From a virus: a DNA stretch of 64,000 nucleotides. The notes below the pieces were generated by a model. The model searched no databases. It had not been told where the DNA came from and was given only the letters and a program-made list of their open reading frames with translations. Shown here piece after piece: positions 597-12,053 of this stretch; position 1 is the first letter of the stretch, and each line of letters starts with the position of its first letter. The stretch is taken from the IMG/VR virus record IMGVR_UViG_3300025141_014429, positions 1-64,000 of that record. One strand, 5' to 3'. Position numbers and translations under genes: made by a program.

Positions 597-910
597 TGAT
601 CGATCCAAATCTATGTTTCTCAGCGACTAATGAAATAATGAATATTGCCAAGTCAATAGTCATGACTTTCAAGCCGGGTTCAGACTATGTAACTGAATCA
701 GATCTTTATAAATATATTGCTGATGAAATGAGTAAGATTGAAAATAGTTGTAGTTCTGACGTAAGAGAAGGCTACACACGACATATTCTAGGCAAGTTTC
801 CAATCTGGATATCAGATGAAGCTTATAAGCGGATACGTCTGACAGAAGTTAAGTCAACACTTTCGAAGCTTAGAGGTGCTGCCAAGTCACACGTGCAAAA
901 TATCACATAA
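596..910 (+). CDS. Hypothetical protein, 104 aa
   Basis: This mixed alpha/beta-looking soluble protein has no motif I recognise. It starts at an ATG overlapping the upstream stop (TAATG) with GGAGGTGAGT as ribosome site, so translation is probably coupled to the preceding gene. Its last codons overlap the CGTGCAAA element of the next promoter (892-921), showing how tightly the promoter array is packed. Confidence 0.8.
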   Translation: MIDPNLCFSATNEIMNIAKSIVMTFKPGSDYVTESDLYKYIADEMSKIENSCSSDVREGYTRHILGKFPIWISDEAYKRIRLTEVKSTLSKLRGAAKSHVQNIT

Positions 911-921
911 CCTATTATAAT
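892..921 (+). promoter_or_regulatory. Array promoter 1 (CGTGCAAA-N16-TATAAT)
   Basis: CGTGCAAA at 892-899, 16 bp, then TATAAT at 916-921. The leader carries ACCAACCAA and AAGGAG before the gene at 958. It overlaps the 3' end of the preceding gene. Confidence 0.85.
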
Positions 922-957
922 ATAAACACATACCAACCAACTAATAAGGAGTTTATT

Positions 958-1155
958 ATGTTAAAATATTTCAAGACACTTAAACAGGCACAAAAATATG
1001 CAGACAATAATTGCGGATCTAAAGAATTGATGGTCATCATTGATAGAGAAGCAAAAGAATATGGCGACGACTGTTATTGCGTCGTTGACCAAGCAGGCAT
1101 CAATCACCTAGACCAAATGAATTGGGACTATAGGGTGTTTGAAGTCTGGAATTAA
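958..1155 (+). CDS. Hypothetical protein, 65 aa
   Basis: A small soluble protein with three cysteines and a tryptophan-rich C-terminus. It has its own array promoter and an AAGGAGTTTATT ribosome site. I recognise no family. A structured RNA segment (1158-1244) begins 3 bases after its stop codon, so that RNA would be the 3' UTR of this message. Confidence 0.8.
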   Translation: MLKYFKTLKQAQKYADNNCGSKELMVIIDREAKEYGDDCYCVVDQAGINHLDQMNWDYRVFEVWN

Positions 1156-1157
1156 AA

Positions 1158-1244
1158 CTCCGTGGTTGGTGTTTACAGACGGCTAGAAGGTCGTCGGAGA
1201 GAGAGCTGGTTACTCTCGGGTATGGGTGGGCAAAAAACATCAAC
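1158..1244 (+). ncRNA. Candidate structured RNA A (pseudoknot-like, anti-leader sequence)
   Basis: CTCCG 1158-1162 can pair with CGGAG 1195-1199. GTTGGTGTTT 1165-1174 can pair with AAACATCAAC 1235-1244 (one G-U). The pairings interlock in a-b-a'-b' order. Two small hairpins sit inside: GACG/CGTC at 1178-1195 and GAGAG/CTCTC at 1201-1217. The 5' strand reads AACTCC-G-TGGTTGG-TGTTT, the antisense of the consensus array leader (AAACA..CCAACCA..GGAGTT). No U-run follows, so it may be a 3' UTR element rather than a free small RNA. Seen in sequence; role inferred. Confidence 0.45.
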
Positions 1245-1245
1245 A

Positions 1246-1275
1246 CGTGCAAAAACTGCGGAAGCATATTATAAT
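1246..1275 (+). promoter_or_regulatory. Array promoter 2
   Basis: CGTGCAAA 1246-1253, 16 bp, TATAAT 1270-1275. The leader has TCAACCAATAAGGAG. It drives the gene at 1306. Confidence 0.85.
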
Positions 1276-1305
1276 ATAACTATATTCAACCAATAAGGAG
1301 TTAAC

Positions 1306-1587
1306 ATGAAGTTTCCAACAGGAACACCAAAAGAAGTAATTGAAGGATGTGCTAAGGTCAGTGCAGAAAACGTTCGCAAACTTAAAGAAAAGCTAAAGTT
1401 TCCAGATGTCAGATCATGCGAAGTATGGCTAGAATATGAGGACGGTTCTGAATATACAGTTGATACATTTCTTAATATGGACCTGGATATCGAGGAACAA
1501 ATACGTGAAACATTTGAAGCACCAAATCTAGAAGTAGAAGAAGGTTCAAAGTTAGTCAACTTCAAGTGGAAAGAACTTGGAATATAA
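1306..1587 (+). CDS. Hypothetical protein, 93 aa
   Basis: An acidic, lysine-rich soluble protein without a recognisable motif. A 111-aa frame opposite it is a shadow. The ATG follows AAGGAGTTAAC 7 bases upstream, and its own array promoter ends 30 bases before the start. The next promoter begins 3 bases after the stop, so it is probably a monocistronic unit. Confidence 0.82.
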   Translation: MKFPTGTPKEVIEGCAKVSAENVRKLKEKLKFPDVRSCEVWLEYEDGSEYTVDTFLNMDLDIEEQIRETFEAPNLEVEEGSKLVNFKWKELGI

Positions 1588-1590
1588 ACC

Positions 1591-1620
1591 CGTGCAAAAA
1601 ACAAACCAACCTATTATAAT
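1591..1620 (+). promoter_or_regulatory. Array promoter 3
   Basis: CGTGCAAA 1591-1598, 16 bp, TATAAT 1615-1620. The leader contains ACCAACCAA and AAGGAGTTATT. It drives the gene at 1652. Confidence 0.85.
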
Positions 1621-1651
1621 ATAACTATACCAACCAAATCAAGGAGTTATT

Positions 1652-1939
1652 ATGTACCCAAAAGCTAAATACATTAACATTTTCGAATCTAAGTTTGTGA
1701 GACCAAATGCCACCGGACATGCTGGCGCGACATATGTAACAAACAGTGATAAGATGGTCACCATTCGTCTCGATGCAATTATATCCATACACACAGAGAG
1801 GATCGAATATTCACATCATCGTTATTGCACAGTCACAATGTCAAACGGTTTTAGATATAAAATCACAGAGGAAACAGCAGAAGAGATTCGCCTCTGCTTG
1901 AATATCGATTCTATCCATGAAAAAAGAGGAGAAGAATAA
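1652..1939 (+). CDS. Hypothetical protein, 95 aa
   Basis: A small soluble protein whose middle part looks like a beta-rich fold (RLDAIISIH, then TVTMSNGFRYKIT). It is reminiscent of phage proteins that test a value in a short beta sheet, but I assign no family. It is first in a run of five tightly spaced genes; the downstream 48-aa gene overlaps its stop (TAATG). Confidence 0.8.
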   Translation: MYPKAKYINIFESKFVRPNATGHAGATYVTNSDKMVTIRLDAIISIHTERIEYSHHRYCTVTMSNGFRYKITEETAEEIRLCLNIDSIHEKRGEE

Positions 1940-2085
1940 TGAAAAACTTTATAATAGTCATTACATACAAAGACGGCACCGTCAGAAGACAGCCGTTATT
2001 CGGAACCATTCAACAAGCATCAGCAGCAATTCAAGCCTATGCACTAGTATCCACAATTGACAACGTTTTCTTGCAATTCAAATAG
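1939..2085 (+). CDS. Small protein, 48 aa
   Basis: This short gene encodes a peptide starting MKNFIIVITYKDGTVRR. It begins inside the stop of the upstream gene (TAATG) with an AGAGGAGAAGA ribosome site and ends just before another GGAG. It looks like a two-strand-plus-helix mini-domain. Function unknown. Confidence 0.65.
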   Translation: MKNFIIVITYKDGTVRRQPLFGTIQQASAAIQAYALVSTIDNVFLQFK

Positions 2086-2093
2086 GAGAAATC

Positions 2094-2168
2094 ATGTTAA
2101 TCAAAGTAGTTACATTAGCAAGACATAGACATAACCAACGAGGTGGTAAATGGGAAAGTATACAGTAG
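2094..2168 (+). CDS. Very small ORF, 24 aa
   Basis: ATG preceded by TAGGAGAAATC, giving MLIKVVTLARHRHNQRGG and a few more residues, basic. It overlaps the start of the next gene by 19 bases, so it may be a translational coupling peptide rather than a functional protein. Confidence 0.4.
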   Translation: MLIKVVTLARHRHNQRGGKWESIQ

Positions 2169-2755
2169 ACGACAATAGGTCAATGCAGCTTAACGACAAC
2201 AACGACCGTTACTGGTCATCCAGAGGTATAGACATAGATGATTTCATCTATGACGACGACACAAATAATCTTTCAAAAGGAAATAAAATCATGTTCATCG
2301 AAATAAATAACAAGCTTATCAATCTAGCACATGTTCACTCAATTAGTACAGAGGTGAATAAAGTCGACGTCAAAAGACACGCAATTGAATGGGATCGCAA
2401 CTGGCCTAGACGCACTCAACATCTAGCCGAGATAATTCCGGAATTTACTATCACATTTACTTCCGAACGTTGGGAAGAAAAAGTAATGATTAGTGCTAAA
2501 GTCCACGATCCGGATCGTATAGGTGATACTTACTATCCAAATAGGGGCAACAGCTATTGTAATGTCAATTATAGCTGCTATATTCCAGATGTGGATCTGC
2601 GTTCAGAGACTAAACTCTCCTATGCAACGATTGTATGCGGAGGCGAGGACTTCGATCAGCAAGCAATTAAAAAAGAGATTGAAGCGTCAAGTCATGGGCT
2701 GACACACGCGTATATCAGATCACTTTGTAGACAACACAATCCAGAATCACAATAA
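2150..2755 (+). CDS. Hypothetical protein, 201 aa
   Basis: I do not recognise the family. The first 47 residues are polar and rich in Asp/Asn. An internal in-frame ATG at 2291 is preceded by AAAGGAAATAAAATC and gives MFIEINNKLINL, which also looks like a natural start, so the product may be 154 aa. The body carries several Trp and Cys residues and looks beta-rich. It is fourth in the operon behind promoter 3. Confidence 0.75.
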   Translation: MGKYTVDDNRSMQLNDNNDRYWSSRGIDIDDFIYDDDTNNLSKGNKIMFIEINNKLINLAHVHSISTEVNKVDVKRHAIEWDRNWPRRTQHLAEIIPEFTITFTSERWEEKVMISAKVHDPDRIGDTYYPNRGNSYCNVNYSCYIPDVDLRSETKLSYATIVCGGEDFDQQAIKKEIEASSHGLTHAYIRSLCRQHNPESQ

Positions 2756-2765
2756 AGGAGAAATC

Positions 2766-3191
2766 ATGAAACCAACTAATCAACCACAAGTTAAGTTAAA
2801 AGGAATAGAGTATCTATTGCTAGCCATTCAATCAGATCCGGGTAAGTCTCAACGACATTATCTGCGTAGGCTTTATCAATATAATCATGGTGTGCCATCA
2901 TACAATAATGGAGGCACTAATAACGGATACTTTACCAGTCAAAGTTATCGTGGCGTTTTATGGTACGACGACTCAAACGATCCAGTATCTGCTAAGTATG
3001 AGTGTTACAAATCTGTTAATAGTGTTTTTATGTGCTGGGGTCCTGCGTCTAACTATGCGTATCGATCAAAGTGTTCAGCTATGAAACTGACGCTATCTGG
3101 TCATGAACGTGCTAATAAAGTCAGAGAAAAGCTAGGTCTTGATCCTATCGATTTATTGAATGGAGCTCCAGCGCATGCAAATTGGGTTTAA
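2766..3191 (+). CDS. Hypothetical protein, 141 aa
   Basis: A Tyr/Asn-rich soluble protein of unknown family, with an AAAGGAGAAATC ribosome site 10 bases after the previous stop. The last 18 bases of the gene contain CATGCAAA, which serves as the upstream element of the next promoter. Confidence 0.75.
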   Translation: MKPTNQPQVKLKGIEYLLLAIQSDPGKSQRHYLRRLYQYNHGVPSYNNGGTNNGYFTSQSYRGVLWYDDSNDPVSAKYECYKSVNSVFMCWGPASNYAYRSKCSAMKLTLSGHERANKVREKLGLDPIDLLNGAPAHANWV

Positions 3192-3203
3192 CTACTGTAT
3201 AAT
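3174..3203 (+). promoter_or_regulatory. Array promoter 4 (CATGCAAA variant)
   Basis: CATGCAAA 3174-3181, 16 bp, TATAAT 3198-3203. The upstream box lies inside the preceding gene. The leader has AACCAAGGAACTAAC. It drives the gene at 3231. Confidence 0.8.
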
Positions 3204-3230
3204 ATAAGTGTATATAACCAAGGAACTAAC

Positions 3231-3842
3231 ATGACCATATTCGAAAATCCAGACTTTTATTATAATGACTTAACACATTTAATAACTAATGAAATCATTA
3301 CGTCTATTGAAAAGGGAATATCAGGCGTAGAAGGATATGCGCGATGGAAATATCCTGTCTTCATTGATGCTGAGGACGATCTTATAGATTGGAGCTTTGA
3401 TGTTCAATACGTTGACGACGTTCCTGGTAGAACGTTCGATGTTTGGGCATCTGCAGGTTTCAATGAGGACTACATTCCTGGGGTCACGTTTACAATTGTA
3501 CTACCAAGAGGAACAGCACTAAAAGATGCTGACATAGATTATCCTGAACTATTCGGTTCAGTTGCACATGAGTTGCATCACATTGCTCAGAAGAATGAAG
3601 GCATATGTGAATATGAAGGGGAGGCATATAACGATCAAGTGAGGTACTACCTCAACCCGACAGAGATACCAGCATTTCATATTGGATTTAGAGCGCAGTG
3701 TGCTCTGTCGGGTGCGGACATGGAAACAGAAATGAGATCTTACTTATCTCTTCAGAATATCAACAAAGAAGAAACTAAACTTATCATTGAGTCTTGGATG
3801 AATCCGAGTTTCGAAATAGCTGAGTTGAACTTACTAGTTTGA
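3231..3842 (+). CDS. Putative zinc metallopeptidase (HExxH), 203 aa
   Basis: The motif GSVAHELHHIAQ, roughly residues 108-120, carries the HExxH zinc-binding signature. Acidic residues about ten positions later (EYEGEAY) could supply the third ligand or the catalytic surroundings. There is no signal peptide, so it would act in the cytoplasm or be packaged. A second HExxH protein lies at 33821-34228. Target unknown. The peptidase call rests on the motif alone. Confidence 0.6.
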   Translation: MTIFENPDFYYNDLTHLITNEIITSIEKGISGVEGYARWKYPVFIDAEDDLIDWSFDVQYVDDVPGRTFDVWASAGFNEDYIPGVTFTIVLPRGTALKDADIDYPELFGSVAHELHHIAQKNEGICEYEGEAYNDQVRYYLNPTEIPAFHIGFRAQCALSGADMETEMRSYLSLQNINKEETKLIIESWMNPSFEIAELNLLV

Positions 3843-3845
3843 ACT

Positions 3846-3875
3846 CGTGTAAATAATAAAACCGAACTGTATAAT
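3846..3875 (+). promoter_or_regulatory. Array promoter 5 (CGTGTAAA variant)
   Basis: CGTGTAAA 3846-3853, 16 bp, TATAAT 3870-3875. Leader AACCAATAAGGAG. It drives the gene at 3904. Confidence 0.83.
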
Positions 3876-3903
3876 AAAAGTGTAACCAATAAGGAGAATG
3901 ATA

Positions 3904-4251
3904 ATGATATATCGAAAACTATTCAACTGGATCGACGGTGATGATGCTTGTGAAGTTACATCAATTACGCTCTATTCAGCACATGATACCGGTCATGACG
4001 AAGAAAAAGACTTTATAATCCGTCGACTCAAGAGTCTTCTGGAAACTGGTGTGACAATCCAGAATATTGTACTTTATCTATGTCCCAAAGATGATCGTCC
4101 AAGATATTATCAGCAATTACCCGACAACTATTTGAATGATATCGATTCGCTCTCTAAAGCTATTGACAATCTTTACAGCGATGGACTAGAACTAGCTGAG
4201 GCTATCGAAACGATGACCATCAATGTTAGCATAAAAGAAAATGGACACTAA
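3904..4251 (+). CDS. Hypothetical protein, 115 aa
   Basis: An acidic soluble protein of unknown family. An ATG two codons earlier (3898) lies only one base after AAGGAG, too close to use, so I chose 3904, seven bases after the ribosome site. Own promoter; the next promoter starts 2 bases after its stop. Confidence 0.78.
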   Translation: MIYRKLFNWIDGDDACEVTSITLYSAHDTGHDEEKDFIIRRLKSLLETGVTIQNIVLYLCPKDDRPRYYQQLPDNYLNDIDSLSKAIDNLYSDGLELAEAIETMTINVSIKENGH

Positions 4252-4253
4252 CA

Positions 4254-4283
4254 CGTGCAAATAATAAAACCAATCTGTATAAT
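4254..4283 (+). promoter_or_regulatory. Array promoter 6
   Basis: CGTGCAAA 4254-4261, 16 bp, TATAAT 4278-4283. The leader AACCAACCAAGGAG is an exact target for both anti-leader loops described at 13041 and 13249. Confidence 0.87.
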
Positions 4284-4310
4284 ATAAGTGTAACCAACCA
4301 AGGAGCAATC

Positions 4311-4553
4311 ATGATACCACTAACACAAATAACATGGGCGTATATCTCAAGACATGGCGATGAAAGACGTGGACGAAAGACAAAGACCATTTATCTTAAT
4401 GCTAGTCACATCTTTAAACTAGAAGAGGAAGAACACGGTACTCGTATATGCTACTCGACAAATGGCAATTGTACAGTAGAAGAGTCACCAGCACAAATAT
4501 CATCATTAATGTTACGAGTACATCAGACTCGTAGTGCAGCAACAAACTATTAG
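4311..4553 (+). CDS. Hypothetical protein, 80 aa
   Basis: A basic N-terminal half (RHGDERRGRKTKT) precedes an acidic stretch (LEEEEHGTR). Unknown family. Strong CCAAGGAGCAATC ribosome site. It heads a five-gene run that ends at about 5306 with stop/start overlaps. Confidence 0.78.
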   Translation: MIPLTQITWAYISRHGDERRGRKTKTIYLNASHIFKLEEEEHGTRICYSTNGNCTVEESPAQISSLMLRVHQTRSAATNY

Positions 4554-4562
4554 GACTTAGTC

Positions 4563-4733
4563 ATGAAAAAGAATGAAGAAATCATAACAACAATTAAAGC
4601 AGCCAGAGGAATAGAGCGAGAAGAACACTTCAAGAACGGAGGATCATTAGTCTCTTGGAGAGGTGGAACTCGAACAGTCCAGCGGAACAAAAAAACCTAC
4701 AGCCGAAAAGGGAAATCAAAATGGAAACAGTAA
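4563..4733 (+). CDS. Small basic protein, 56 aa
   Basis: The peptide reads AARGIEREEHFKNGG followed by SWRGG and a Lys/Arg-rich tail, suggesting nucleic-acid or ribosome contact. It starts 9 bases after the upstream stop, with a weak TAGGACTTAG ribosome site. The next gene starts inside its 3' end. I do not recognise a characterised family. Confidence 0.65.
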   Translation: MKKNEEIITTIKAARGIEREEHFKNGGSLVSWRGGTRTVQRNKKTYSRKGKSKWKQ

Positions 4734-4948
4734 AAACAATCATCGAAGCATACGGCATATGCCAGATATGTGAACATAAATATGACGGGTATACTATACA
4801 CTACACTGTAGAGATATCAGGTGTACAGATATATCTTTGTTCTAGTCTTGAAAATTGTTATACATGTGCTAACAGTATCAATAGTAGTAATCCCATATCA
4901 AGAACAGTAGATGCATTTCGATATCAACAACAAGAAGGAGTAGCATAG
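4721..4948 (+). CDS. Hypothetical Cys-rich protein, 75 aa
   Basis: Start chosen at the ATG at 4721 because AAAGGGAAATC lies just upstream; an earlier in-frame ATG at 4655 has none. The protein has a CQIC pair near residue 13 and C..C..C residues around LCSSLENCYTCAN, so a small zinc-binding domain is possible. It overlaps the preceding gene by 13 bases and the next by one. Confidence 0.7.
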   Translation: METVKTIIEAYGICQICEHKYDGYTIHYTVEISGVQIYLCSSLENCYTCANSINSSNPISRTVDAFRYQQQEGVA

Positions 4949-5103
4949 TGTATTATCAAATATGGAACAAGAAAACAGAAGAGGTCGAGTGCACATGTCC
5001 TGACTACAATTCAGCATTGCGGTTTATCGAAATGATTGGAGATTCAGATCTAACAATCAAAATGATTCCGAAAGAAGATCACCCACTCAGGAGAGGACGA
5101 TGA
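4948..5103 (+). CDS. Small protein, 51 aa, GTG start
   Basis: GTG start preceded by AAGGAGTAGCATA and overlapping the upstream TAG by one base. The product has Cys-x-Cys (ECTCPDY) near its middle and a basic tail. It ends in an ATGA overlap with the next gene. Unknown function. Confidence 0.6.
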   Translation: MYYQIWNKKTEEVECTCPDYNSALRFIEMIGDSDLTIKMIPKEDHPLRRGR

Positions 5104-5306
5104 CATTCCAAGTAGGTGATCTGGTCGAGCAGAAATCGAATGGAACAAAGTGGCTAGTTACAAAAACACAACTCAGTGCATACTCCCCTCAGGGCTATTG
5201 TATCACGATTCAAAGATCGACTTTTCTTAAGACCGGTCATGGTGGATCAAGGACTGACTATCCAATATATTATGACCTGTTTTCTCGTGCAAGTGCGTGC
5301 AAATAA
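5100..5306 (+). CDS. Small SH3-like protein, 68 aa
   Basis: The FQVGDLVEQKSNGTKWLV opening resembles small SH3/Tudor-type barrels that start with a GDxV turn, like the proteins at 16703 and 16945. Start overlaps the upstream TGA (ATGA) with AGGAGAGGACG upstream. The 3' end carries the CGTGCAAA of promoter 7. Fold guess only. Confidence 0.65.
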   Translation: MTFQVGDLVEQKSNGTKWLVTKTQLSAYSPQGYCITIQRSTFLKTGHGGSRTDYPIYYDLFSRASACK

Positions 5307-5325
5307 TAAAACCAAACTGTATAAT
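5296..5325 (+). promoter_or_regulatory. Array promoter 7
   Basis: CGTGCAAA 5296-5303, 16 bp, TATAAT 5320-5325. Leader ACACACCAACTAAAAGG. It drives the gene at 5356. Confidence 0.85.
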
Positions 5326-5355
5326 ATAAACACACACCAACTAAAAGGAAATAAC

Positions 5356-5550
5356 ATGACACAATCACAATTTAGAGAAATCCTTAGAAGAGTTCAGAGC
5401 CTTCACACCGATTTTGAAGAAGGTATATCAGACGAAGCAGCATATGATATGGCACTCTTTATTCTCGATGATAACCCGGGTCTGAAAGAATATATCAATA
5501 ACAATTGCGGTGCCTCCGATGCAGTCGGCTGGCTCATGTGTGAAATGTAG
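5356..5550 (+). CDS. Hypothetical protein, 64 aa
   Basis: Helical acidic protein (LRRVQSLHTDFEEGISDEAAYDMA split over two helices). Start taken at 5356 after AAAAGGAAATAAC; the longer frame runs back through the promoter. It shares the ISDEAAYDMALFIL / ISEEAYSAIIEYLL pattern with the gene at 5717, so the two are probably distant paralogues. Confidence 0.75.
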   Translation: MTQSQFREILRRVQSLHTDFEEGISDEAAYDMALFILDDNPGLKEYINNNCGASDAVGWLMCEM

Positions 5551-5559
5551 GAAGATAAC

Positions 5560-5712
5560 ATGACTAGACTATATAAAAACTGGACAGTACACAACCTAGT
5601 ATCACACCCACTATCAGAGATCGCGTATCTGCTAGGTTTCTCAGAAGAAACATACAACTGGATACATGACGTCTCAATACCCAAACATAAACCCGGAACA
5701 GGGAGAGGATAA
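5560..5712 (+). CDS. Small protein, 50 aa
   Basis: Begins MTRLYKNWTVHNLVSHPLSE and ends in a KHKPGTGRG tail. AGGAAGATAAC ribosome site, 9 bases after the previous stop. It looks like a short helix-rich, possibly membrane-peripheral peptide. No family assigned. Confidence 0.65.
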   Translation: MTRLYKNWTVHNLVSHPLSEIAYLLGFSEETYNWIHDVSIPKHKPGTGRG

Positions 5713-5716
5713 AACT

Positions 5717-5956
5717 ATGAATACAGAATCATTATATAATTTCATCATGCTTTGTCTTAAAGATGATGATGGAATATCAGAGGAAGCTTATAGTGCTATA
5801 ATAGAATATCTCTTATCACAAAATGAACAAGCAATTGTAATCGAAATAAATAGTAAGTGCAAGTCAGCAAATGGGCGGAGGTATATACCTGATGATACTC
5901 CAACTGATTTATTTGAAGATACTCGAGCACGACTAAACAAATTAAACATTAGATAG
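5717..5956 (+). CDS. Hypothetical protein, 79 aa
   Basis: Start chosen at 5717 behind GGGAGAGGATAAAACT. Acidic helical protein sharing an ISEEAYSAIIEYLL segment with the protein at 5356. Third gene of the promoter 7 unit. Function unknown. Confidence 0.72.
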   Translation: MNTESLYNFIMLCLKDDDGISEEAYSAIIEYLLSQNEQAIVIEINSKCKSANGRRYIPDDTPTDLFEDTRARLNKLNIR

Positions 5957-5963
5957 ACATGTA

Positions 5964-5993
5964 CGTGCAAAACACAAAACCACTTTGTATAAT
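5964..5993 (+). promoter_or_regulatory. Array promoter 8
   Basis: CGTGCAAA 5964-5971, 16 bp, TATAAT 5988-5993. Leader CTAACCAATAAGGAGTTATT. It drives the gene at 6024. Confidence 0.86.
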
Positions 5994-6023
5994 ATAAATG
6001 TATCTAACCAATAAGGAGTTATT

Positions 6024-6398
6024 ATGTTAAACATCCAACCAGAAAAAATACTATACACAGGACCAGAAGGCTGCAGCTATCATGCATGGAACTACGAAAT
6101 AAAGCCTAATCTTGTAGGGTCAATCGACGAACACTCTGATACTCTAGATATTACAAGGAAGCTCGACGAACATTTGTTGTATAGAAGAGATGACGTAGAA
6201 TCTTTAAAACAATACATCCATGTCATAGTTGAACTATCAAAAATACATGGATTTACTCACATTGTTGACGAGGAAATGGGAATACTAATCGATGAACCTA
6301 AGCCACTCATCGAAGTAGTCAACGAGAGCTTAAAAGGTTGGCCGACAGGAGCTCAACTAAGAGTGCTCCAAGGTTTAGATATATCACATTTAGCGTAA
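6024..6398 (+). CDS. Hypothetical protein, 124 aa
   Basis: Acidic soluble protein with no motif I know, monocistronic between promoters 8 and 9. AAGGAGTTATT ribosome site at ideal spacing. Confidence 0.78.
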   Translation: MLNIQPEKILYTGPEGCSYHAWNYEIKPNLVGSIDEHSDTLDITRKLDEHLLYRRDDVESLKQYIHVIVELSKIHGFTHIVDEEMGILIDEPKPLIEVVNESLKGWPTGAQLRVLQGLDISHLA

Positions 6399-6400
6399 CA

Positions 6401-6430
6401 CGTGCAAATAATAAAACCAACTTGTATAAT
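6401..6430 (+). promoter_or_regulatory. Array promoter 9
   Basis: CGTGCAAA 6401-6408, 16 bp, TATAAT 6425-6430. Leader ACCAACCAAAGG. It drives the 51-aa gene at 6459. Confidence 0.87.
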
Positions 6431-6458
6431 ATAAACATACCAACCAAAGGAAAATACT

Positions 6459-6614
6459 ATGCAACAAATACCACCCAGACTTAAAAGAACACTAGACGCA
6501 GACTACGGCACTGACGGATGGACTTTTCTAGGTTATGATGAAAACTTATACATCGAAATAAGGTTTCATTTATCAGGAGCTGTCATATCATTCAACCGAG
6601 ACCACTGGTTATAA
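6459..6614 (+). CDS. Small protein, 51 aa
   Basis: ATG after CCAAAGGAAAATACT. The peptide (MQQIPPRLKRTLDADYGTD...) is aromatic-rich at its C-terminus. It has a dedicated promoter in front and another 12 bases behind, which supports a real monocistronic gene despite its size. Confidence 0.68.
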   Translation: MQQIPPRLKRTLDADYGTDGWTFLGYDENLYIEIRFHLSGAVISFNRDHWL

Positions 6615-6625
6615 GGAGCACATAA

Positions 6626-6655
6626 CGTGTAAATAATAAAACCAAACTGTATAAT
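6626..6655 (+). promoter_or_regulatory. Array promoter 10 (CGTGTAAA variant)
   Basis: CGTGTAAA 6626-6633, 16 bp, TATAAT 6650-6655. Leader AAACACACCACAACTTACGGAG. It drives the gene at 6685. Confidence 0.84.
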
Positions 6656-6684
6656 ATAAACACACCACAACTTACGGAGATAAC

Positions 6685-6867
6685 ATGGAAAATATAATCA
6701 AACTATTAAAACAACTAGACGACGGTGGAATCAAAGACGGATTCAAATCAGGACACTATGATTTAGAAGGATGTGTCATTGAACTACTCGATCAATTGTA
6801 TATGCGCGGATGTGATGATGAAAGTTGTCTACAAAAAGATGCAATCATGACTTACCTTCACACTTAG
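6685..6867 (+). CDS. Small protein, 60 aa
   Basis: Acidic helical protein with two cysteines near its end (CDDESCLQ). Ribosome site TACGGAGATAAC. First of a three-gene unit. Unknown function. Confidence 0.7.
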   Translation: MENIIKLLKQLDDGGIKDGFKSGHYDLEGCVIELLDQLYMRGCDDESCLQKDAIMTYLHT

Positions 6868-6876
6868 GGAGAAAAC

Positions 6877-7014
6877 ATGGAAAAAACATTCTTATTTACA
6901 GTCACTTTACAAGGATCAGGTGACACACCCGAGGAGGCTTGGGCTGATGCAGTCGAAGCATTCATCGAAGATCCAGGTGAACCACATGTAATCGAAGAAG
7001 TCGAAGAGGAGTAA
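6877..7014 (+). CDS. Small acidic protein, 45 aa
   Basis: Reads MEKTFLFTVTLQGSGDTPEE, then a helix and a Glu-rich tail (EEVEEE). The pattern resembles short phage beta-beta-alpha proteins with a GxGxTPEEAW motif seen in many phages. AGGGAGAAAAC ribosome site. Ends one base before the next ATG. Confidence 0.68.
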   Translation: MEKTFLFTVTLQGSGDTPEEAWADAVEAFIEDPGEPHVIEEVEEE

Positions 7015-7015
7015 C

Positions 7016-7219
7016 ATGCTAAAGAAGTCAGACATTCCTAACCTGCCCGGGAAGACAGTTATTATAACACACACTAACAAGACATATGAAATAATCTCAG
7101 CAAGTGTAGTTAGATGGGCAGGTCTCGTCGCAGTCCTAAGAGACGCGGAAGGAGAAGAACGAAAAATAGCAATACACACCTCAGTCTGGGACCCACAACG
7201 CAATGCGTATATACTATAG
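7016..7219 (+). CDS. Small beta-rich protein, 67 aa
   Basis: Starts PGKTVIITHTNKTYEIISAS, a pattern of alternating strands, and looks like a small barrel. AGAGGAGTAAC ribosome site. Third gene of the promoter 10 unit. No assigned function. Confidence 0.7.
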   Translation: MLKKSDIPNLPGKTVIITHTNKTYEIISASVVRWAGLVAVLRDAEGEERKIAIHTSVWDPQRNAYIL

Positions 7220-7235
7220 TCTCAAAAATCAAAAG

Positions 7236-7265
7236 CGTGTAAATTGCTAAAACAACTCGTATAAT
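7236..7265 (+). promoter_or_regulatory. Array promoter 11 (CGTGTAAA variant)
   Basis: CGTGTAAA 7236-7243, 16 bp, TATAAT 7260-7265. Leader lacks ACCAACCAA. It drives the gene pair at 7298 and 7515. Confidence 0.83.
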
Positions 7266-7297
7266 ATAAACACCTAATAAATAAAAGGAAAACCACT

Positions 7298-7510
7298 ATG
7301 ACAGAATCATATACACAACAAGAAGTAGAAGAACGAGCTAAACGCATCTTAAGCCAGTCAGGAGGACTAAGACGAGGAACTATCAATGAGTTTCGTAATA
7401 TGGCAAGCGGTGGAACTGAATACGGTATACGTGAGACTTATTACCCTGGAAAACCAAATCAGTTCTTTAGCGATGTCTTAGCTATTATTGAAGAATCAGA
7501 AGAAGGATAA
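7298..7510 (+). CDS. Small protein, second member of the three-copy family
   Basis: 70 aa, closely similar to the product of 381-596: YTQQEVEERAKRIL, GTINEFRNMASG, YGIRETYYPGKPNQFF. The conserved NEFR and YYPxKPNQFF blocks suggest a folded domain with a shared partner. Followed 4 bases later by the third, diverged copy. Function unknown. Confidence 0.85.
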   Translation: MTESYTQQEVEERAKRILSQSGGLRRGTINEFRNMASGGTEYGIRETYYPGKPNQFFSDVLAIIEESEEG

Positions 7511-7514
7511 ACAC

Positions 7515-7727
7515 ATGAAAACAAAACATACAAAACGAGACGTCGAACAACTCGGCCTTCAGATACTCGGCATGCCCGCATATGAACGTATGAATATTCT
7601 AACAGAAATGGCTGAGTACGCATCAACGCAAGATCATCCACTTAGAGACGAGTTCTATCCCCATAAGACACCCAAGTATTTCAGAGCTGTGATCTCTTAT
7701 GTCTTTCAGAACGGTGCCTTGAGTTAA
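7515..7727 (+). CDS. Small protein, third and diverged member of the family
   Basis: 70 aa. The start at 7515 follows AGAAGGATAAACAC. It keeps the layout of the two other copies: a DVEQLGLQILGMP helix, then LTEMAEYAS, then RDEFYPHKTPKYFRAVI. The identical residues are reduced to the structural core. Adjacent tandem position suggests local duplication followed by divergence. Confidence 0.78.
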   Translation: MKTKHTKRDVEQLGLQILGMPAYERMNILTEMAEYASTQDHPLRDEFYPHKTPKYFRAVISYVFQNGALS

Positions 7728-8177
7728 TCCCTATACTCCCAGAAGAGTAGGGCACGAGACGTCTTGCGCCCCGTGCACGCGATGTAGATTTCTCTTCGTT
7801 CGGCAGTGGCCAAAGAGCCACTGCCCTGGGCTCATGGAGCAGCCCTAGTACTCTGTCGTGTATAGCCTAAAAAACCTTTACAGTTCATTCCGGAAAAGAT
7901 AGCTCGCGCCCCGCGCGTGTAGAATGGACTTAGGGCGCGAGATAACTTGCGCTCGAGAACATGTTTTTTTGAAGACAACACAGCTTTTTCATTGACAGAC
8001 AGTACTTGACTGTACTCCCGCCGGACCCAGAGTCAATCCCAGACACCCCGTCATCACCCGGCAGCCCTTTTGGACAAGACGGCTCGCGCCCCGAGCGAGC
8101 GCGCGCACGTGGACACATCCCCACGCGTCACAGACAGCAACAAAGTGAACAAAGTGCGCGCCCTGGAGTCAACTTTT
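7728..8177 (+). other. 450-bp GC-rich noncoding island with strong hairpins
   Basis: No convincing gene on either strand; short frames here are compositional. The GC content is well above the surroundings. GGCAGTGGC 7802-7810 pairs with GCCACTGCC 7817-7825. AGAGTA 7744-7749 pairs with TACTCT 7849-7854, and CACGA 7753-7757 with TCGTG 7856-7860, the latter crossing the former. CTCGCGCCC 7903-7911 pairs with GGGCGCGAG 7933-7941, or alternatively GCGCGAG 7935-7941 with CTTGCGC 7946-7952. GCGCCCCG occurs three times (about 7766, 7907, 8086). Probably one or more structured RNAs or a control locus. Identity unknown. Confidence 0.55.
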
Positions 8178-8207
8178 CGTGTAAATCCCATCACTACACT
8201 GTATAAT
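8178..8207 (+). promoter_or_regulatory. Array promoter 12 (CGTGTAAA variant)
   Basis: CGTGTAAA 8178-8185, 16 bp, TATAAT 8202-8207. Leader ends CCCAAGGAAACATC. It drives the gene at 8239. Confidence 0.83.
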
Positions 8208-8238
8208 AAGATCATAACAAAAAACCCAAGGAAACATC

Positions 8239-8655
8239 ATGTCACTCGATCATCTTATCCCACAAGACGTATTCATAGACGGACTAGTCAATGGAGTCGC
8301 AATCCCGGCTCAGTCGTCCACTGAGCTCTACACTTTCGGCACGCGTCTTATTGACTTCGTAAATAATGCAAACAACGAGTACTGGGCAGGTTGGCACCCT
8401 TCGAAGACCGATCAGCTGATCATTGATCGCAACAACATACACATGATCGACATCGCCTTGGAAGCAGGCAAACTCATTTTCCTTATGCCCAGTAACGGCG
8501 CGGCACAGGATTTGCCAAAAGAGTTTGGACATGGCGCAGTCGGTGTTATTCTCTTCTGCATGCTTGAGAACGAGCAGATCAAAGAGACAACAGCTCCAAA
8601 GGCAGTCGAAGAGCCAAAGCCGAAGCGGCCGGCTCCCAATTTTGATATGCTGTAA
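8239..8655 (+). CDS. Hypothetical protein, 138 aa
   Basis: Soluble domain followed by a Pro/Lys-rich tail (EEPKPKRPAP) ending in NFDML, a short hydrophobic end that could be a docking tag. Base composition is richer in G+C than its neighbours. Two long minus-strand frames overlap it but lack start signals. Own promoter and AAGGAAACATC ribosome site. Function unknown. Confidence 0.8.
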   Translation: MSLDHLIPQDVFIDGLVNGVAIPAQSSTELYTFGTRLIDFVNNANNEYWAGWHPSKTDQLIIDRNNIHMIDIALEAGKLIFLMPSNGAAQDLPKEFGHGAVGVILFCMLENEQIKETTAPKAVEEPKPKRPAPNFDML

Positions 8656-8706
8656 TGCACTCCCCTCTCCACAATTGTCACAAAAAACCGAGGCATGCGC
8701 AAAACA

Positions 8707-8736
8707 CGTGCATAACCTCTTGGGCTCCTGTATAAT
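8707..8736 (+). promoter_or_regulatory. Array promoter 13 (CGTGCATA variant)
   Basis: CGTGCATA 8707-8714, 16 bp, TATAAT 8731-8736. Leader CAACCAACCAAGGAGTTATT. It drives the gene at 8764. Confidence 0.83.
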
Positions 8737-8763
8737 ATAGGGGCAACCAACCAAGGAGTTATT

Positions 8764-9078
8764 ATGAGTGTTTTACGTAAAGTCAAAGGTCAAGAGCTGA
8801 AGCTGGGAATATATTGGGAGCATGAAATATATTTCGCTCCTATCAAGGATAAGAACACCGGTAAGACTATTATGATACCGATGAAAAAGAAGATAGGTCC
8901 GTTTTATAACCATGTGTTTGTATGGACTGGCAGCTTCTGGTGTCCCAAGACCCGTTTTGAAAGATGGAGTGGAACACCAAAACTACAACAAATCAATCAA
9001 CGTTATGCTGATAGACCTACTCATTTTGTGGACCACATATTCGGTACCGATGAGGACGGCAACTCTAAGTTTGCTTAG
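8764..9078 (+). CDS. Hypothetical protein, 104 aa
   Basis: Basic, Trp/Tyr/Phe-rich soluble protein, monocistronic, with the canonical CCAAGGAGTTATT ribosome site. No recognisable family. Confidence 0.78.
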   Translation: MSVLRKVKGQELKLGIYWEHEIYFAPIKDKNTGKTIMIPMKKKIGPFYNHVFVWTGSFWCPKTRFERWSGTPKLQQINQRYADRPTHFVDHIFGTDEDGNSKFA

Positions 9079-9082
9079 AATT

Positions 9083-9112
9083 CATGCATATTTCAAAACC
9101 ACTTATTATAAT
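9083..9112 (+). promoter_or_regulatory. Array promoter 14 (CATGCATA variant)
   Basis: CATGCATA 9083-9090, 16 bp, TATAAT 9107-9112. Leader ACCAACCAATGGAG. It drives the gene at 9142. Confidence 0.78.
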
Positions 9113-9141
9113 ATAAACACCACCAACCAATGGAGAATATT

Positions 9142-9390
9142 ATGTCACAACATAAAACAAAATCAAATCAAGAGTTTTCAATCGAAAGACCTATCAAAAA
9201 ATCTCGTAAGGCACACAAATGCTGTTCATGTCAAAAAACAATACCCGCTAAGTCAAGCTATGTTCGAACAGTCGGTGTATCTGAATCCTATCGACATTAT
9301 GGTAACGACTTTTTTAGCAACGCATGGCATCAAGAATGTCTAGAAGACCATCAAGGATATATCCGCGATCGTTTAAGACGACAAGGATAG
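9142..9390 (+). CDS. Small zinc-finger-like protein, 82 aa
   Basis: The start at 9142 follows AATGGAGAATATT. KCCSCQKTI provides a CxxC knuckle around residue 27, and NAWHQEC provides His and Cys about 40 residues later, a treble-clef or Fpg-type finger layout. Basic at both ends. Probably binds nucleic acid or a protein partner. The zinc site is inferred from spacing only. Confidence 0.72.
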   Translation: MSQHKTKSNQEFSIERPIKKSRKAHKCCSCQKTIPAKSSYVRTVGVSESYRHYGNDFFSNAWHQECLEDHQGYIRDRLRRQG

Positions 9391-9398
9391 CAATATCC

Positions 9399-9428
9399 CG
9401 TGCAAATTTACAGATGCATCCGTATAAT
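9399..9428 (+). promoter_or_regulatory. Array promoter 15
   Basis: CGTGCAAA 9399-9406, 16 bp, TATAAT 9423-9428. Leader ACCAACCAATAAGG. It drives the gene at 9462. Confidence 0.86.
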
Positions 9429-9461
9429 ATAAACACCTACCAACCAATAAGGAAATATAAC

Positions 9462-9710
9462 ATGTTCAAAGTTTACGTTACATTTAAGACTGGAGATCGT
9501 CACCTCGACACCGATTGGTGCGATGAGAAGAAGCTGATGCAATCCTTATATCGTCTTATTCATGGACCGGTCGCTCGGTTAAACATTATCAAGGAAATAC
9601 GCGTTGTCGATCAAGATGACTATACTATATTCCTCAGTCAGGAAGGCAAACAAATCTTTCCTGCTATATTAACGCAACCGCAGGATAACAATCACATCAT
9701 TCAAAACTAA
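9462..9710 (+). CDS. Hypothetical protein, 82 aa
   Basis: Start at 9462 behind AATAAGGAAATATAAC; an upstream in-frame ATG lies inside the previous gene. The opening FKVYVTFKTGDRHLDTDW is a pair of beta strands followed by a helix. Unknown family. Its 3' end is overlapped by an open frame lacking a normal start (9681-9864). Confidence 0.75.
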   Translation: MFKVYVTFKTGDRHLDTDWCDEKKLMQSLYRLIHGPVARLNIIKEIRVVDQDDYTIFLSQEGKQIFPAILTQPQDNNHIIQN

Positions 9711-9864
9711 AATCCTTCGTATCATTCAGTTCTCACTTAGAGCGTTCGGTCAAGAGAATAGCAGAATAGTTATCAAGGTTCTAGAAGCACTAGAACGCGA
9801 ACACATCAAAGAGGAAGAGAAGTGGTTGCGTATCAATGGCCACAACTGGAAAATCAGCAGGTGA
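9681..9864 (+). other. Coding-like frame without a canonical start codon
   Basis: After the stop TAA of the +1 frame near 9670, a frame stays open to TGA at 9862-9864. It encodes about 58 helical, charged residues (for example LEALEREHIKEEEKWLRING), which look protein-like. No ATG, GTG or TTG lies near a ribosome site; only ATA or ATC follow CGCAGGATAACA. It could be a degraded gene, a non-canonical start, or a +1 frameshift extension of the upstream gene. Confidence 0.3.
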
Positions 9865-9871
9865 CAACTCA

Positions 9872-9901
9872 CGTGCAAAACATAAAACCAATCTGTATAA
9901 T
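9872..9901 (+). promoter_or_regulatory. Array promoter 16
   Basis: CGTGCAAA 9872-9879, 16 bp, TATAAT 9896-9901. Leader ACACACCAACCAAAGGAG. It drives the gene at 9929. Confidence 0.87.
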
Positions 9902-9928
9902 ATAAACACACCAACCAAAGGAGAATAC

Positions 9929-10153
9929 ATGCGATCATCAATCATCATTACAGTTCTAGTTAAGAATATAGTTTGGGACACAGATAGTCAAGAGGATATT
10001 ATTGAAAATAACCTCCCAGAAGAAGTACCTGTCCAAGTCGATCTAGCTTCAATACATAGTTTTGATTGTATCAATAAACAAATATGCAATCACCTTTCAG
10101 ACGAATATGGATGGTTGATCTCTGACTATGATTTAGAAGGTTATTCAAAATAA
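9929..10153 (+). CDS. Hypothetical protein, 74 aa
   Basis: Start at 9929 after AAAGGAGAATAC. A strand (SIIITVLVKNIVW) is followed by an acidic segment. No family assigned; monocistronic. Confidence 0.72.
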   Translation: MRSSIIITVLVKNIVWDTDSQEDIIENNLPEEVPVQVDLASIHSFDCINKQICNHLSDEYGWLISDYDLEGYSK

Positions 10154-10162
10154 ATCAAAACA

Positions 10163-10192
10163 CGTGCAAAATCAATTAGAGTTCTGTATAAT
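10163..10192 (+). promoter_or_regulatory. Array promoter 17
   Basis: CGTGCAAA 10163-10170, 16 bp, TATAAT 10187-10192. Leader ACCAACCAATAAGG. It drives the 40-aa gene at 10224. Confidence 0.86.
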
Positions 10193-10223
10193 ATAAACAC
10201 ATACCAACCAATAAGGAAACATT

Positions 10224-10346
10224 ATGAAAAACCAATCACCAACACAACCTTTTTTCGATCTCATTGAAAAAGAGTTAAAAGAATATGAACAAAAAATCGC
10301 ACAAAAAAATGGACATCAATCTAAAACGCGTGCAAAATCAAAATAA
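10224..10346 (+). CDS. Very small protein, 40 aa
   Basis: MKNQSPTQPFFDLIEKELK followed by a Lys/Gln-rich helix and basic tail. It has its own complete promoter, leader and AAGGAAACATT ribosome site, which argues that it is made. The promoter of the next gene overlaps its last six codons. Confidence 0.62.
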   Translation: MKNQSPTQPFFDLIEKELKEYEQKIAQKNGHQSKTRAKSK

Positions 10347-10358
10347 CCACTGTATAAT
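10329..10358 (+). promoter_or_regulatory. Array promoter 18
   Basis: CGTGCAAA 10329-10336, 16 bp, TATAAT 10353-10358. Long leader with two AACCAATAA copies before AAGGAG. It drives the gene at 10401. Confidence 0.86.
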
Positions 10359-10400
10359 ATAAACACCTAACCAATAATAAACAACCAATAAGGAGTCAAT

Positions 10401-10832
10401 ATGACTATTTCAAATAAAACAACCCTTCAAGAGCTTATCAAACTCGGTCTATTTTCAGAAGCTGATATCGAAAAGTTCAATAAAAAACTTCAAAGAGCAG
10501 CTGATAGCCAAGCTCGTAAAGCCTTAGTAGATGGCACCATGTCAGCTATCAAAGCTCTAGTTCAATCAGAAGTCCATAATGGAAATAAGTATTGGTCTGT
10601 TAAAACAGCAGCTCATAGCCTTGGTTTCATGAGTTATATCCAAGCTGATAGAGGGATCGTTCTCAAAGCTCTTACAAAGTTAACTGAGGAAGGGTATTTA
10701 ACTAAGATTGGTCTTAAAACCGTCGAAGGTAAGCTAACAGAGTTAACGCCTAAACAAGTTAACGCATTCCAAATCCGTTATGTAGTTACCCCCGTTGAAG
10801 CTGAAGGCGCTATCGTTCCAGTGGCCAAGTAA
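10401..10832 (+). CDS. Helical protein with repeated LQELIKLG module, 143 aa
   Basis: The first 45 residues (TLQELIKLGLFSEADIEKF...KLQRAADSQARKAL) recur in the proteins at 14265 (TLQELVDSGVITAADVAKFEKRL) and 11302 (TLKELVDLGLISQEM). They define a small paralogous module. The remainder looks like a winged-helix-type domain (LKALTKLTEEGYLTKIGLKT). I infer a DNA-binding or regulatory role; not proven. Confidence 0.78.
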   Translation: MTISNKTTLQELIKLGLFSEADIEKFNKKLQRAADSQARKALVDGTMSAIKALVQSEVHNGNKYWSVKTAAHSLGFMSYIQADRGIVLKALTKLTEEGYLTKIGLKTVEGKLTELTPKQVNAFQIRYVVTPVEAEGAIVPVAK

Positions 10833-10842
10833 GGCCCTGGAG

Positions 10843-10869
10843 GTGGGAGGACTTTAACCGGTCCCCCAC
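10843..10869 (+). terminator. Hairpin after gene 10401-10832
   Basis: GTGGGAGGAC 10843-10852 pairs with GTCCCCCAC 10861-10869 (one bulged A). A T-rich stretch (TTTTATTTT) starts 10 bases later. Likely terminator, slightly imperfect. Confidence 0.5.
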
Positions 10870-10887
10870 TGCCCTCACTTTTATTTT

Positions 10888-10917
10888 CGTGCAAAATCAA
10901 TATCATAGTTGTATAAT
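10888..10917 (+). promoter_or_regulatory. Array promoter 19
   Basis: CGTGCAAA 10888-10895, 16 bp, TATAAT 10912-10917. Leader CATCAACCAAAGGA. It drives the genes at 10945 and 11302. Confidence 0.86.
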
Positions 10918-10944
10918 ATAAACACATCAACCAAAGGATATATT

Positions 10945-11292
10945 ATGAAATACTTTTCAATCGACTATCGTTCACCCCCTTCTGGAATGGGACAAATCAT
11001 TGACACCAAAAAACCTGAGAAGGTTGGAGATCAATATAACTTCATTCTTATTGACTACGGTACTGATCCTCATGAAGATCCCAGCTATGTCATGACAAAA
11101 TACTTCTATTCAGAACAAGCAGCAGAAGAAGGATGGGCAGGAGCAGTTCTTCCCCAAATATTTCAATTCCTTCGAGACTCCAAAGTTACACATGTCCATG
11201 ACAGTGAGCTATCATATGAAGAGGAAGGGGCAGACGAGGATGGGTATTTCCTATTAGATCGCTGGATCGAAATTATGAATTCATATTTATAG
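10945..11292 (+). CDS. Hypothetical protein, 115 aa
   Basis: Start at 10945 after CAAAGGATATATT. Acidic soluble protein, aromatic-rich, no motif recognised. Followed by a small gene with a GGAGACAAA ribosome site 9 bases later. Confidence 0.75.
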   Translation: MKYFSIDYRSPPSGMGQIIDTKKPEKVGDQYNFILIDYGTDPHEDPSYVMTKYFYSEQAAEEGWAGAVLPQIFQFLRDSKVTHVHDSELSYEEEGADEDGYFLLDRWIEIMNSYL

Positions 11293-11301
11293 GAGACAAA
11301 A

Positions 11302-11454
11302 ATGGATGTCAGTGCACTTACGCTCAAAGAGTTGGTAGACCTAGGTCTGATATCTCAGGAGATGATCATACGAATTCAAACCCGTGCTGATCGTCAACTT
11401 GAGAGGATGGCACAAAACCATAAGTTGAGCAATTACATAAAACGAAAAAAATAA
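11302..11454 (+). CDS. Small protein, isolated LxELVxLG module, 50 aa
   Basis: SALTLKELVDLGLISQEMII and a basic tail (IQTRADRQLERM, KRKK) match the N-terminal module of the proteins at 10401 and 14265 without the C-terminal domain. It may act as a partner or competitor of the longer paralogues. TAGGAGACAAAA ribosome site. Confidence 0.68.
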   Translation: MDVSALTLKELVDLGLISQEMIIRIQTRADRQLERMAQNHKLSNYIKRKK

Positions 11455-11469
11455 ACTTTTTTTGAAGTT

Positions 11470-11521
11470 GGTCATTTTTTGACCGGTTTCCAATACGGAG
11501 CTCAAAATAATATGGTATAAT
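11470..11521 (+). promoter_or_regulatory. Sigma-A promoter with GGTCA/TGACC inverted repeat
   Basis: The inverted repeat GGTCA 11470-11474 / TGACC 11480-11484 is followed by a -10 element TATAAT at 11516-11521 within ATATGGTATAATATATC. There is no CGTGCAAA box. The same arrangement, base for base over much of its length, lies upstream of the paralogous sigma gene on the minus strand (17771-17822). The leader carries ACCAACCAACAAGGAG. Distinct promoter class, probably controlled at the repeat. Confidence 0.65.
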
Positions 11522-11552
11522 ATATCTATACCAACCAACAAGGAGTTTATTT

Positions 11553-12017
11553 ATGAATATCAACATTAATGAATATATCAAACTAGTTCACCATATCGCT
11601 CACAAATACCGATGGGCAGGAGCCGCTCATGAGGACTTGGTCAGTGCTGGGATAGAGGGACTAGTTGAGGCTAAGGAGAGATTTGACCCTGAAATGGGGA
11701 ACAAATACATTACTTATGCACATTGGTGGGTCCGAGCTTATATCCAAAAAGCTGTCAATTCTCACATCAAAAATAATCATAAATCATTGAATCAAGAGGA
11801 TAGCCTAGGGCGTCAGGGAATAGATAAGGTTGCTGCTGAATATGAAGCTGATACCGAATCATTGATGGCACCTTATATTGAAAGACTCTTAGCTGTATTA
11901 GCTCTATCTGAGCGTGTTATTATTTCAAAAAGATTTGATTTAAAAGGTCCGATACCCACCAAAAGAGAAGAGGTCCTTGAGGAAGCCCGATCTGAGCTAT
12001 CAGCATTGAAGGTATAA
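11553..12017 (+). CDS. Region-2-only sigma factor A (gp55-like), 154 aa
   Basis: Residues about 20-70 form sigma-70 region 2: EDLVSAGIEGLVEAKERFDP, then YITYAHWWVRAYIQKAV, which is the -10 recognition and melting helix with its conserved aromatics. The C-terminus keeps the first helix of region 4 (LALSERVIISKRFDL), but the helix-turn-helix that would follow is replaced by a short helix. T4 late sigma gp55 is likewise region 2 without region 4. Paralogue at 17258-17740; an orphan region 4 protein lies at 43065-43295. It probably directs host RNA polymerase to one phage promoter class. Confidence 0.85.
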   Translation: MNININEYIKLVHHIAHKYRWAGAAHEDLVSAGIEGLVEAKERFDPEMGNKYITYAHWWVRAYIQKAVNSHIKNNHKSLNQEDSLGRQGIDKVAAEYEADTESLMAPYIERLLAVLALSERVIISKRFDLKGPIPTKREEVLEEARSELSALKV

Positions 12018-12053
12018 AACCCCGATGGTTAGCTAAAAAAAGATAAATAAATA

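Follow-up and report, generated by a model that had tools for sequence, protein, structure and literature searches.

Bacterial small RNAs derived from 3′ untranslated regions (UTRs) start near a stop codon and carry a 5′ seed that covers the ribosome-binding sites of several mRNAs; they usually keep the terminator of their gene, and are stable, processed and often bound by Hfq or ProQ. In phages, the c4 RNA lies upstream of its single target and is cotranscribed with it. In the account of a 2025 review (PMC12197685), c4 of phages P1 and P7 (RF01695) is a structured antisense RNA, parts of which are complementary to the region where ribosomes bind a phage mRNA, and P22 sar, lambda OOP, PAK_P4as15 and 24B_1 are phage RNAs for which pairing with phage mRNA is known or proposed, each tied to a single gene. 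In the titles and first lines of abstracts of the open-licence literature we found no antisense RNA directed against a leader common to phage early genes, which does not prove its absence. The locus described here compares with c4 in that its segments are complementary, in silico, to the ribosome-binding region of phage mRNAs.

The locus lies in the window, a stretch of 64,000 nucleotides with which a virus record of 123,028 bases begins. Judging from matches to a tail fibre and a DnaB-like helicase and from a tRNA, the record looks like that of a tailed phage. A near relative was not found in a phage collection by blastn of positions 900-1700 or megablast of 45-64 kb, and tblastn returned only distant homologues. 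Scans of viral contigs with two neighbouring ORFs and the helicase, and with one exact leader pattern, yielded no matches, and the four matches in a scan of genome contigs were not tied to this phage.

Complementarity to the early leaders

The first 16 kb of the window contain many small genes, most of which have their own promoter of a single type. With at most one mismatch allowed, the record contains 31 occurrences of the pattern GTGYAAA-N16-TATAATA (22 exact), on a single strand only, and the reversed pattern was counted 1+1 times. The early promoters are followed by a short AACACATACCAACCAATAAGGAGTTATTATG-type leader, and its consensus form, AACACA.CCAACCA..AAGGAGUU-AUG, is found ahead of most early genes. 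From the first 16 kb, 24 leaders were used after removal of an overlapping duplicate (12078); leaders that deviate from the pattern, for example that of the promoter at 8179, are not among them, and with a second promoter pattern the record yielded 22 leaders, two of which lie beyond the window. AACCAA is present in 18 of the 24 window leaders, exact CCAACCA in 11, and GGAG in 14. The window also encodes a sigma factor (11553-12017; Pfam Sigma70_r2, E 5.7e-12), and the promoters at 11516 (+, that of the sigma factor) and 17776 (-) have a common upstream AGTTGGTCATTTTTTGACCGGTT inverted repeat and lack the GTGYAAA box. Further downstream, a protein like PrkA/YeaG-type serine kinases (38577-40511), with matches to a Thermus phage 'serine kinase' and 'YeaG', adjoins a protein related to a sporulation-type family (36012-37190; whole region 36012-40511).

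The original prediction had pointed to an antisense of the consensus leader in one 3′ UTR, and its parts, AACTCC (1156-1161), G (1162), TGGTTGG (1163-1169) and TGTTT (1170-1174), are indeed present directly behind a TAA stop codon. Together they make up AACTCCGTGGTTGGTGTTT (1156-1174), the near-exact reverse complement of the early-gene leader with one odd base. When the + strand of the window was scanned with 30-nt tiles at steps of 6, tile 1153-1182 paired with the 24 early leaders at a mean of -17.9 kcal/mol (RNAduplex), with 22 of them at -12 or below. The only + strand locus that scored better, 17737, is the antisense of a real minus-strand leader, and top tiles of this kind were set aside (17737 in the window, 42402 in the related record G004, described below, and L032:5845, by sequence). 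The next-ranked loci, at 13027/13081, 20983 and 13243, are all intergenic, as the element is. Two related pieces had been proposed as well. The one at 20996 pairs with 20 of the 24 leaders (mean -14.8) and sits in a hairpin loop, in one phage only, and the one at 12018 (AACCCCGATGGTTAG) did not hold up, with a mean of -8.0 and 2 of 24 leaders.

In 400 dinucleotide shuffles of 1153-1245 the leader complementarity was never reached (closest -17.85 versus -17.88; z -4.7), nor was it in 500 shuffles of the 22-mer. The folding energy was reached in 18 of the 400 (z -1.84 for the window copy alone), and complementarity and folding jointly in none. Since 18 of 400 shuffles fold as well, the fold energy of the window copy is unremarkable and the complementarity is the remarkable part. 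Chance complementarity between a G/U-rich stretch and A/C-rich leaders could claim this ordinary folding energy and the one shuffle that came close, but it is contradicted by these region shuffles and by the leader shuffles given below, and we regard it as scarcely credible. Cofolding of the whole folded element with the leaders gained 4.1-13.7 kcal/mol (mean 9.8), with the poorly pairing leaders at 7260 and 13533 gaining 4.1 and 5.4, and the 5′ part of the element alone gained 11.6 kcal/mol on average. The positions of the features are listed in Table 1.

Table 1. Features of the element, its transcript and related structures, in window coordinates
Feature	Position	Strand	Remark
Early promoter of the element-bearing transcript, GTGCAAA-N16-TATAATA	893..922	+	
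Stretch with 24 early leaders (candidate targets)	925..15276	+	
Leader of the element-bearing transcript, ACACATACCAACCAACTAATAAGGAGTTTATT	926..957	+	candidate cis partner
65-aa ORF upstream of the element	958..1155	+	stop TAA 1153-1155; Pfam match below cut-off only
RNA element, window copy	1156..1247	+	
Seed ACTCCGTGGTTGG	1157..1169	+	complementary to leader CCAACCA and GGAGT; identical in 8/8 aligned copies
P1 5′ strand	1161..1174	+	
P2 hairpin	1178..1195	+	sequence different in each copy
P3 hairpin GAGAG-CTGGTTA-CTCTC	1201..1217	+	covarying
G-rich tract GGGTATGGGTGGG	1218..1230	+	
P1 3′ strand AAACATCAACACG	1235..1247	+	leader-like
Next early promoter	1247..1276	+	first base is last base of P1
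Pseudoknot E1	13031..13108	+	anti-leader loops, U-tail; different from the element
Pseudoknot E2	13206..13270	+	anti-leader loop, U-tail; different from the element
Hairpin with anti-leader GGTTGGTTGTGTG in loop	20986..21015	+	

Copies in other virus records

A relative, G004 (IMGVR_UViG_3300029319_009305), was found by a scan for leader-like promoters; it shares the promoter type, and at least one of its early genes (MKYFSIDYRSPP..) is evidently a homologue. Within the stretches examined, the + strand tile that pairs best with the 18 leaders of G004 holds TTAACTCCGTGGTTGGTGTTAA, which is near-identical to the window element, and the sequence that follows (GGAGRGAGAGCTGGTTACTCTCGGGNNNGGGYGGG) can be aligned as well. 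A core-pattern scan that contained no seed letters led to the element in L027 (record G009) and L028 (record G010), with the seed intact in both; the core pattern matched 10 stretches, of which three (L010, L027 and L028) contain the element and seven (L023-L026 and L029-L031), where it is absent, were rejected. A seed-pattern scan gave two copies in G011, one in G012 and a partial copy in G010; among its nine stretches, L034 and L037 were rejected and L036 holds the partial copy. Tiling of G010 revealed two further full copies, so that there are up to three per record. With a covariance model built from eight copies, nine full copies were detected at E 3.5e-20 or better in six of 11 IMG/VR records (the window record and five others); the scores of the eight copies that went into the model are high by construction. 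The search also gave one partial copy (20.7 bits) and one core-only match (19.6 bits), and no convincing match in the other five records; several of the records are fragmentary. Among the first viral matches, L007-L009 and G005-G008 entered the promoter counts and the covariance search.

The alignment and the P1 and P3 analyses comprise eight of the nine full copies, without the G012 copy (90.3 bits, equal to c17b). The constancy of the seed among them is partly a matter of ascertainment, because five of the eight are the starting copy or were found via the seed or its complementarity. The remaining three (G004, G009 and G010c) were hit by the seed-free core scan and have the seed; G004 had first been seen by tile complementarity. 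The core-only match, L010:2790-2837 in G004 (E 7e-4), consists of P3 and the G-tract without the seed (CTCGGGATAGGGTGGGTA), lies in the 5′ UTR of an ORF and is perhaps a cis-acting use of the core. Conversely, L036:9718 and a site on the minus strand of L022 (around 5334) have an anti-leader segment and a hairpin without the core; the genes that precede them have the same kind of end as window ORF 13510-14169.

By blastn the element had no match in phages (two copies tried) or plasmids. Membership of a known Rfam family was rejected, as scans of the window and of L027, L028, L032 and L033 gave only a tRNA, and a permissive scan of 1100-1320 gave one chance match to another family. The covariance model of c4 (RF01695) was likewise unmatched at the gathering score.

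The nine seeds (eight full copies and one partial) from five phages paired with their own leaders at -14.9 to -16.4 kcal/mol, compared to -8.8 to -11.0 for dinucleotide-shuffled leaders, and for each seed none of 200 shuffled-leader sets reached the own-leader pairing, with dinucleotide and mononucleotide shuffling alike. These tests cover five of the six copy-bearing records, in the stretches examined; G012 gave one leader only. In G009 the element is the best + strand tile and fits 13 of 13 leaders, the three full copies of G010 rank first, third and fourth among the loci, and in G011 two other loci outrank the two copies; one of these loci at least appears by its sequence to be antisense to a minus-strand leader. 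Seed and leader do not covary, because the seed is invariant although the leaders differ among the phages.

Structure of the element

From 5′ to 3′ the element consists of the seed, the rest of the P1 5′ strand, the P2 hairpin, GGAG or GGTG, the P3 hairpin, a G-rich tract that ends in GG-Y-GGG, and the P1 3′ strand. All eight aligned copies contain CUCC-G-UGGUUGG, in which a perfect antisense to CCAACCA-A-GGAG would carry U at the position of the G. The long-range stem that had been proposed between the anti-leader part and AAACATCAAC (1235-1244) is part of P1; it occurs in the minimum free energy (MFE) fold and is kept in the relatives, and it hides the seed in the predicted fold. The P1 duplex is present in eight of eight copies, with P values against shuffled 3′ regions of 0.0005 to 0.19, three of them above 0.05, and a combined P of 2e-7 (Fisher's method), to be read with the fact that the copies are related and hence not independent. 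Its 5′ strand is frozen over the seed, its 3′ strand drifts via G-U steps, and beyond the seed both strands vary (G010a). Such an arrangement is expected if the frozen strand has further partners. The 3′ strand is leader-like: it reads AACACCAAC in several copies, AACCAACCAAGG in G010b and ACACCGACAGGAG in c17b, and by their sequence the latter two are leader mimics.

P2 is present in all copies with unrelated sequences, and 0-10% of shuffles are equally stable. P3 has five pairs and a UGGU loop; 40 of 40 cells in the alignment are paired, and four of the five pairs have changed on both sides. Its covariation score is 0.714 versus 0.204 in shuffles (0/500 reached it), and versions slid along the alignment score at most 0.221. 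A predicted helix with such compensatory base changes is the mark of a conserved structured RNA. P3 is absent from the MFE structure of the window copy itself. One may speculate that the G-rich tract and the UGGU loop could form a two-layer quadruplex. A conserved CUCC:GGAG pseudoknot was rejected, as four of the eight copies have GGTG, and so was a coding sequence, as the differences in copy length are not divisible by 3 and P3 covaries. The original prediction, that a foldable 3′ UTR carries a possibly switchable antisense of the consensus leader, is supported in part. It survives the shuffles, the own-leader controls in five phages and the conservation of seed and P1; besides citing the piece at 12018, it had overlooked that this is a conserved RNA family with a covarying P3, a G-rich tract and a leader-like P1 3′ strand.

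These structures bear on two other explanations. The leader follows promoters, where a DNA-binding protein could sit, and the locus might be a DNA-level feature, either a leader-type site that binds a phage regulator and stands inverted, or an inverted promoter-leader that has decayed. This appears very improbable, as the minus strand shows no promoter boxes to go with the seed, and the P1, P2 and P3 stems together with the compensatory changes in P3 favour RNA. Alternatively, the element might bind a protein or ligand through the P3 loop and the G tract, as a sponge, a riboswitch-like or a polymerase-binding RNA, with leader pairing being secondary or merely closing P1. The UGGU loop and the G tract are conserved beyond what leader pairing needs, the core occurs on its own in a G004 5′ UTR, and the invariant G of the seed is unpaired with the leader. 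However, the core is missing from the partial copy L036:9718, which retains the seed, and in five of five phages tested the seed pairs with the phage's own leaders; we regard a binding regulator of this kind as distinctly unlikely.

Other structures in these phages also carry anti-leader segments. E1, E2 and L020:3968-4039 of G004 lie beside tRNA genes, and each forms a fully paired H-type pseudoknot with stems S1 of 10-12 bp and S2 of 11-12 bp, anti-leader segments in the loops and a U-rich tail. Since the stem sequences are completely different among the three, it is the architecture that is kept. They are like the element in their anti-leader segments and differ from it in being H-type pseudoknots with a U-tail and no P3/G-tract core. 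The loops of the G004 pseudoknot pair weakly with its leaders (6 and 9 of 18 at -8 or below). Furthermore, the window contains a GC-rich structured stretch with a T6 end (20866-20947; fold z -3.2) after ORF 20237-20869, for which there was no Rfam match.

Genomic setting, proposed action and related systems

Seven of the eight aligned copies start 0-7 nt after a stop codon, this being the predicted start of the element and not a mapped RNA end, and one (c17b) lies 14 nt after a tRNA-Leu gene with no upstream ORF. The 17 flanking proteins gave no mutual matches in blastp at E 1e-3, with the exception that the gene upstream of the partial copy in L036 ends like that upstream of the G004 copy and, by eye, looks homologous to it. 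The element occurs independently of its neighbours, and the unrelated neighbours and the tRNA-adjacent copy favour a function that does not depend on them, which argues for action in trans. In and behind the tRNA-following element, L032:4705-5336 contains nine CTCGCGC repeats on one strand, possible iterons or an origin, and three more are present at window 7903-8083.

The element could instead act in cis within its own mRNA, through RNase III or RNase E processing, protection of the 3′ end, or a 5′-3′ panhandle by which its own gene is tuned; its likeness to other leaders would then arise because the P1 3′ strand derives from the leader of a downstream gene. P1 closes the element in all eight copies, the long P2 stems would suit RNase III, and in the MFE fold of 926-1246 the transcript's own leader is paired with the seed. 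A promoter comes directly after the element in most copies; G004 has none there, its P1 3′ strand being continuous with the leader of the following ORF. Against this, neighbouring genes differ among copies and one copy stands behind a tRNA, the frozen strand is the leader-matching one whereas its P1 partner drifts, and a record can hold as many as three full copies. We consider action in cis alone possible, though somewhat unlikely; own-leader pairing in cis and action in trans may both be true.

The reading that we prefer, with a probability of about 0.48, is a phage antisense RNA family that would occlude the Shine-Dalgarno region of many early mRNAs and of its own, with P1 as a leader mimic that hides the seed. 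The RNA would be transcribed and presumably processed from its mRNA, and ACUCCGUGGUUGG, continued by UGUUU, would be the antisense seed for the leader common to most early genes. Once released, or while nascent, the seed would pair simultaneously, in trans, with CCAACCA and Shine-Dalgarno GGAG in many early mRNAs, and also with its own mRNA in cis. Such pairing would block ribosome binding, so that early translation would be damped or switched off. In the unbound state the seed would fold back on the leader-like 3′ strand of the element, and the leaders would therefore compete with a built-in mimic. Because leaders still bind the folded element in the cofolding calculations, P1 may be a barrier that can be surmounted, or avoided during RNA synthesis. 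P3 and the G-rich tract form the conserved core, which may stabilise or gate the P1 switch. Weighing against this reading are the invariant G of the seed, the hiding of the seed by P1 in the predicted fold, the leaders that pair poorly, the lack of seed-leader covariation, the part of ascertainment in the seed's constancy, and the limited number of window leaders with GGAG or exact CCAACCA.

A more far-reaching form of this antisense reading, which we hold to be unlikely, is a one-to-many trans-acting, riboswitch-like off switch for early genes, in which the core would sense a protein or metabolite and the P1 mimic would decide on seed release. If this were true, the tRNA-linked pseudoknots would be a second RNA class aimed at the same leader. 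A leader common to many early genes, combined with complementary conserved RNAs, would allow a whole temporal gene class to be turned down by RNA only. The element also represents a structured RNA family that can be tested, has no Rfam match and recurs in five further records of uncultured phages.

Antisense phage RNAs as such are already known, and on our best reading of the sequences it is the structured family that would be new. With its predicted start near a stop codon and its putative 5′ seed, the element would resemble 3′-UTR-derived small RNAs, and it is unlike them in lacking an intrinsic terminator: the original prediction had called it terminator-less, and within 850-1700 no terminator-like site was found. 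None of P22 sar, lambda OOP, PAK_P4as15 and 24B_1 is described in the 2025 review as targeting a leader repeated across the early region (PMC12197685). Nearest in working principle is c4, as both have segments complementary to the ribosome-binding region of phage mRNA. Unlike the c4 arrangement, the element lies 3′ of ORF 958-1155, with unrelated neighbours among its copies and many candidate targets, and, as a further difference, its seed is held by a leader-mimic stem. Finally, c4 targets one mRNA (ant), whereas the single seed described here fits the leader that about 20 early genes have in common.
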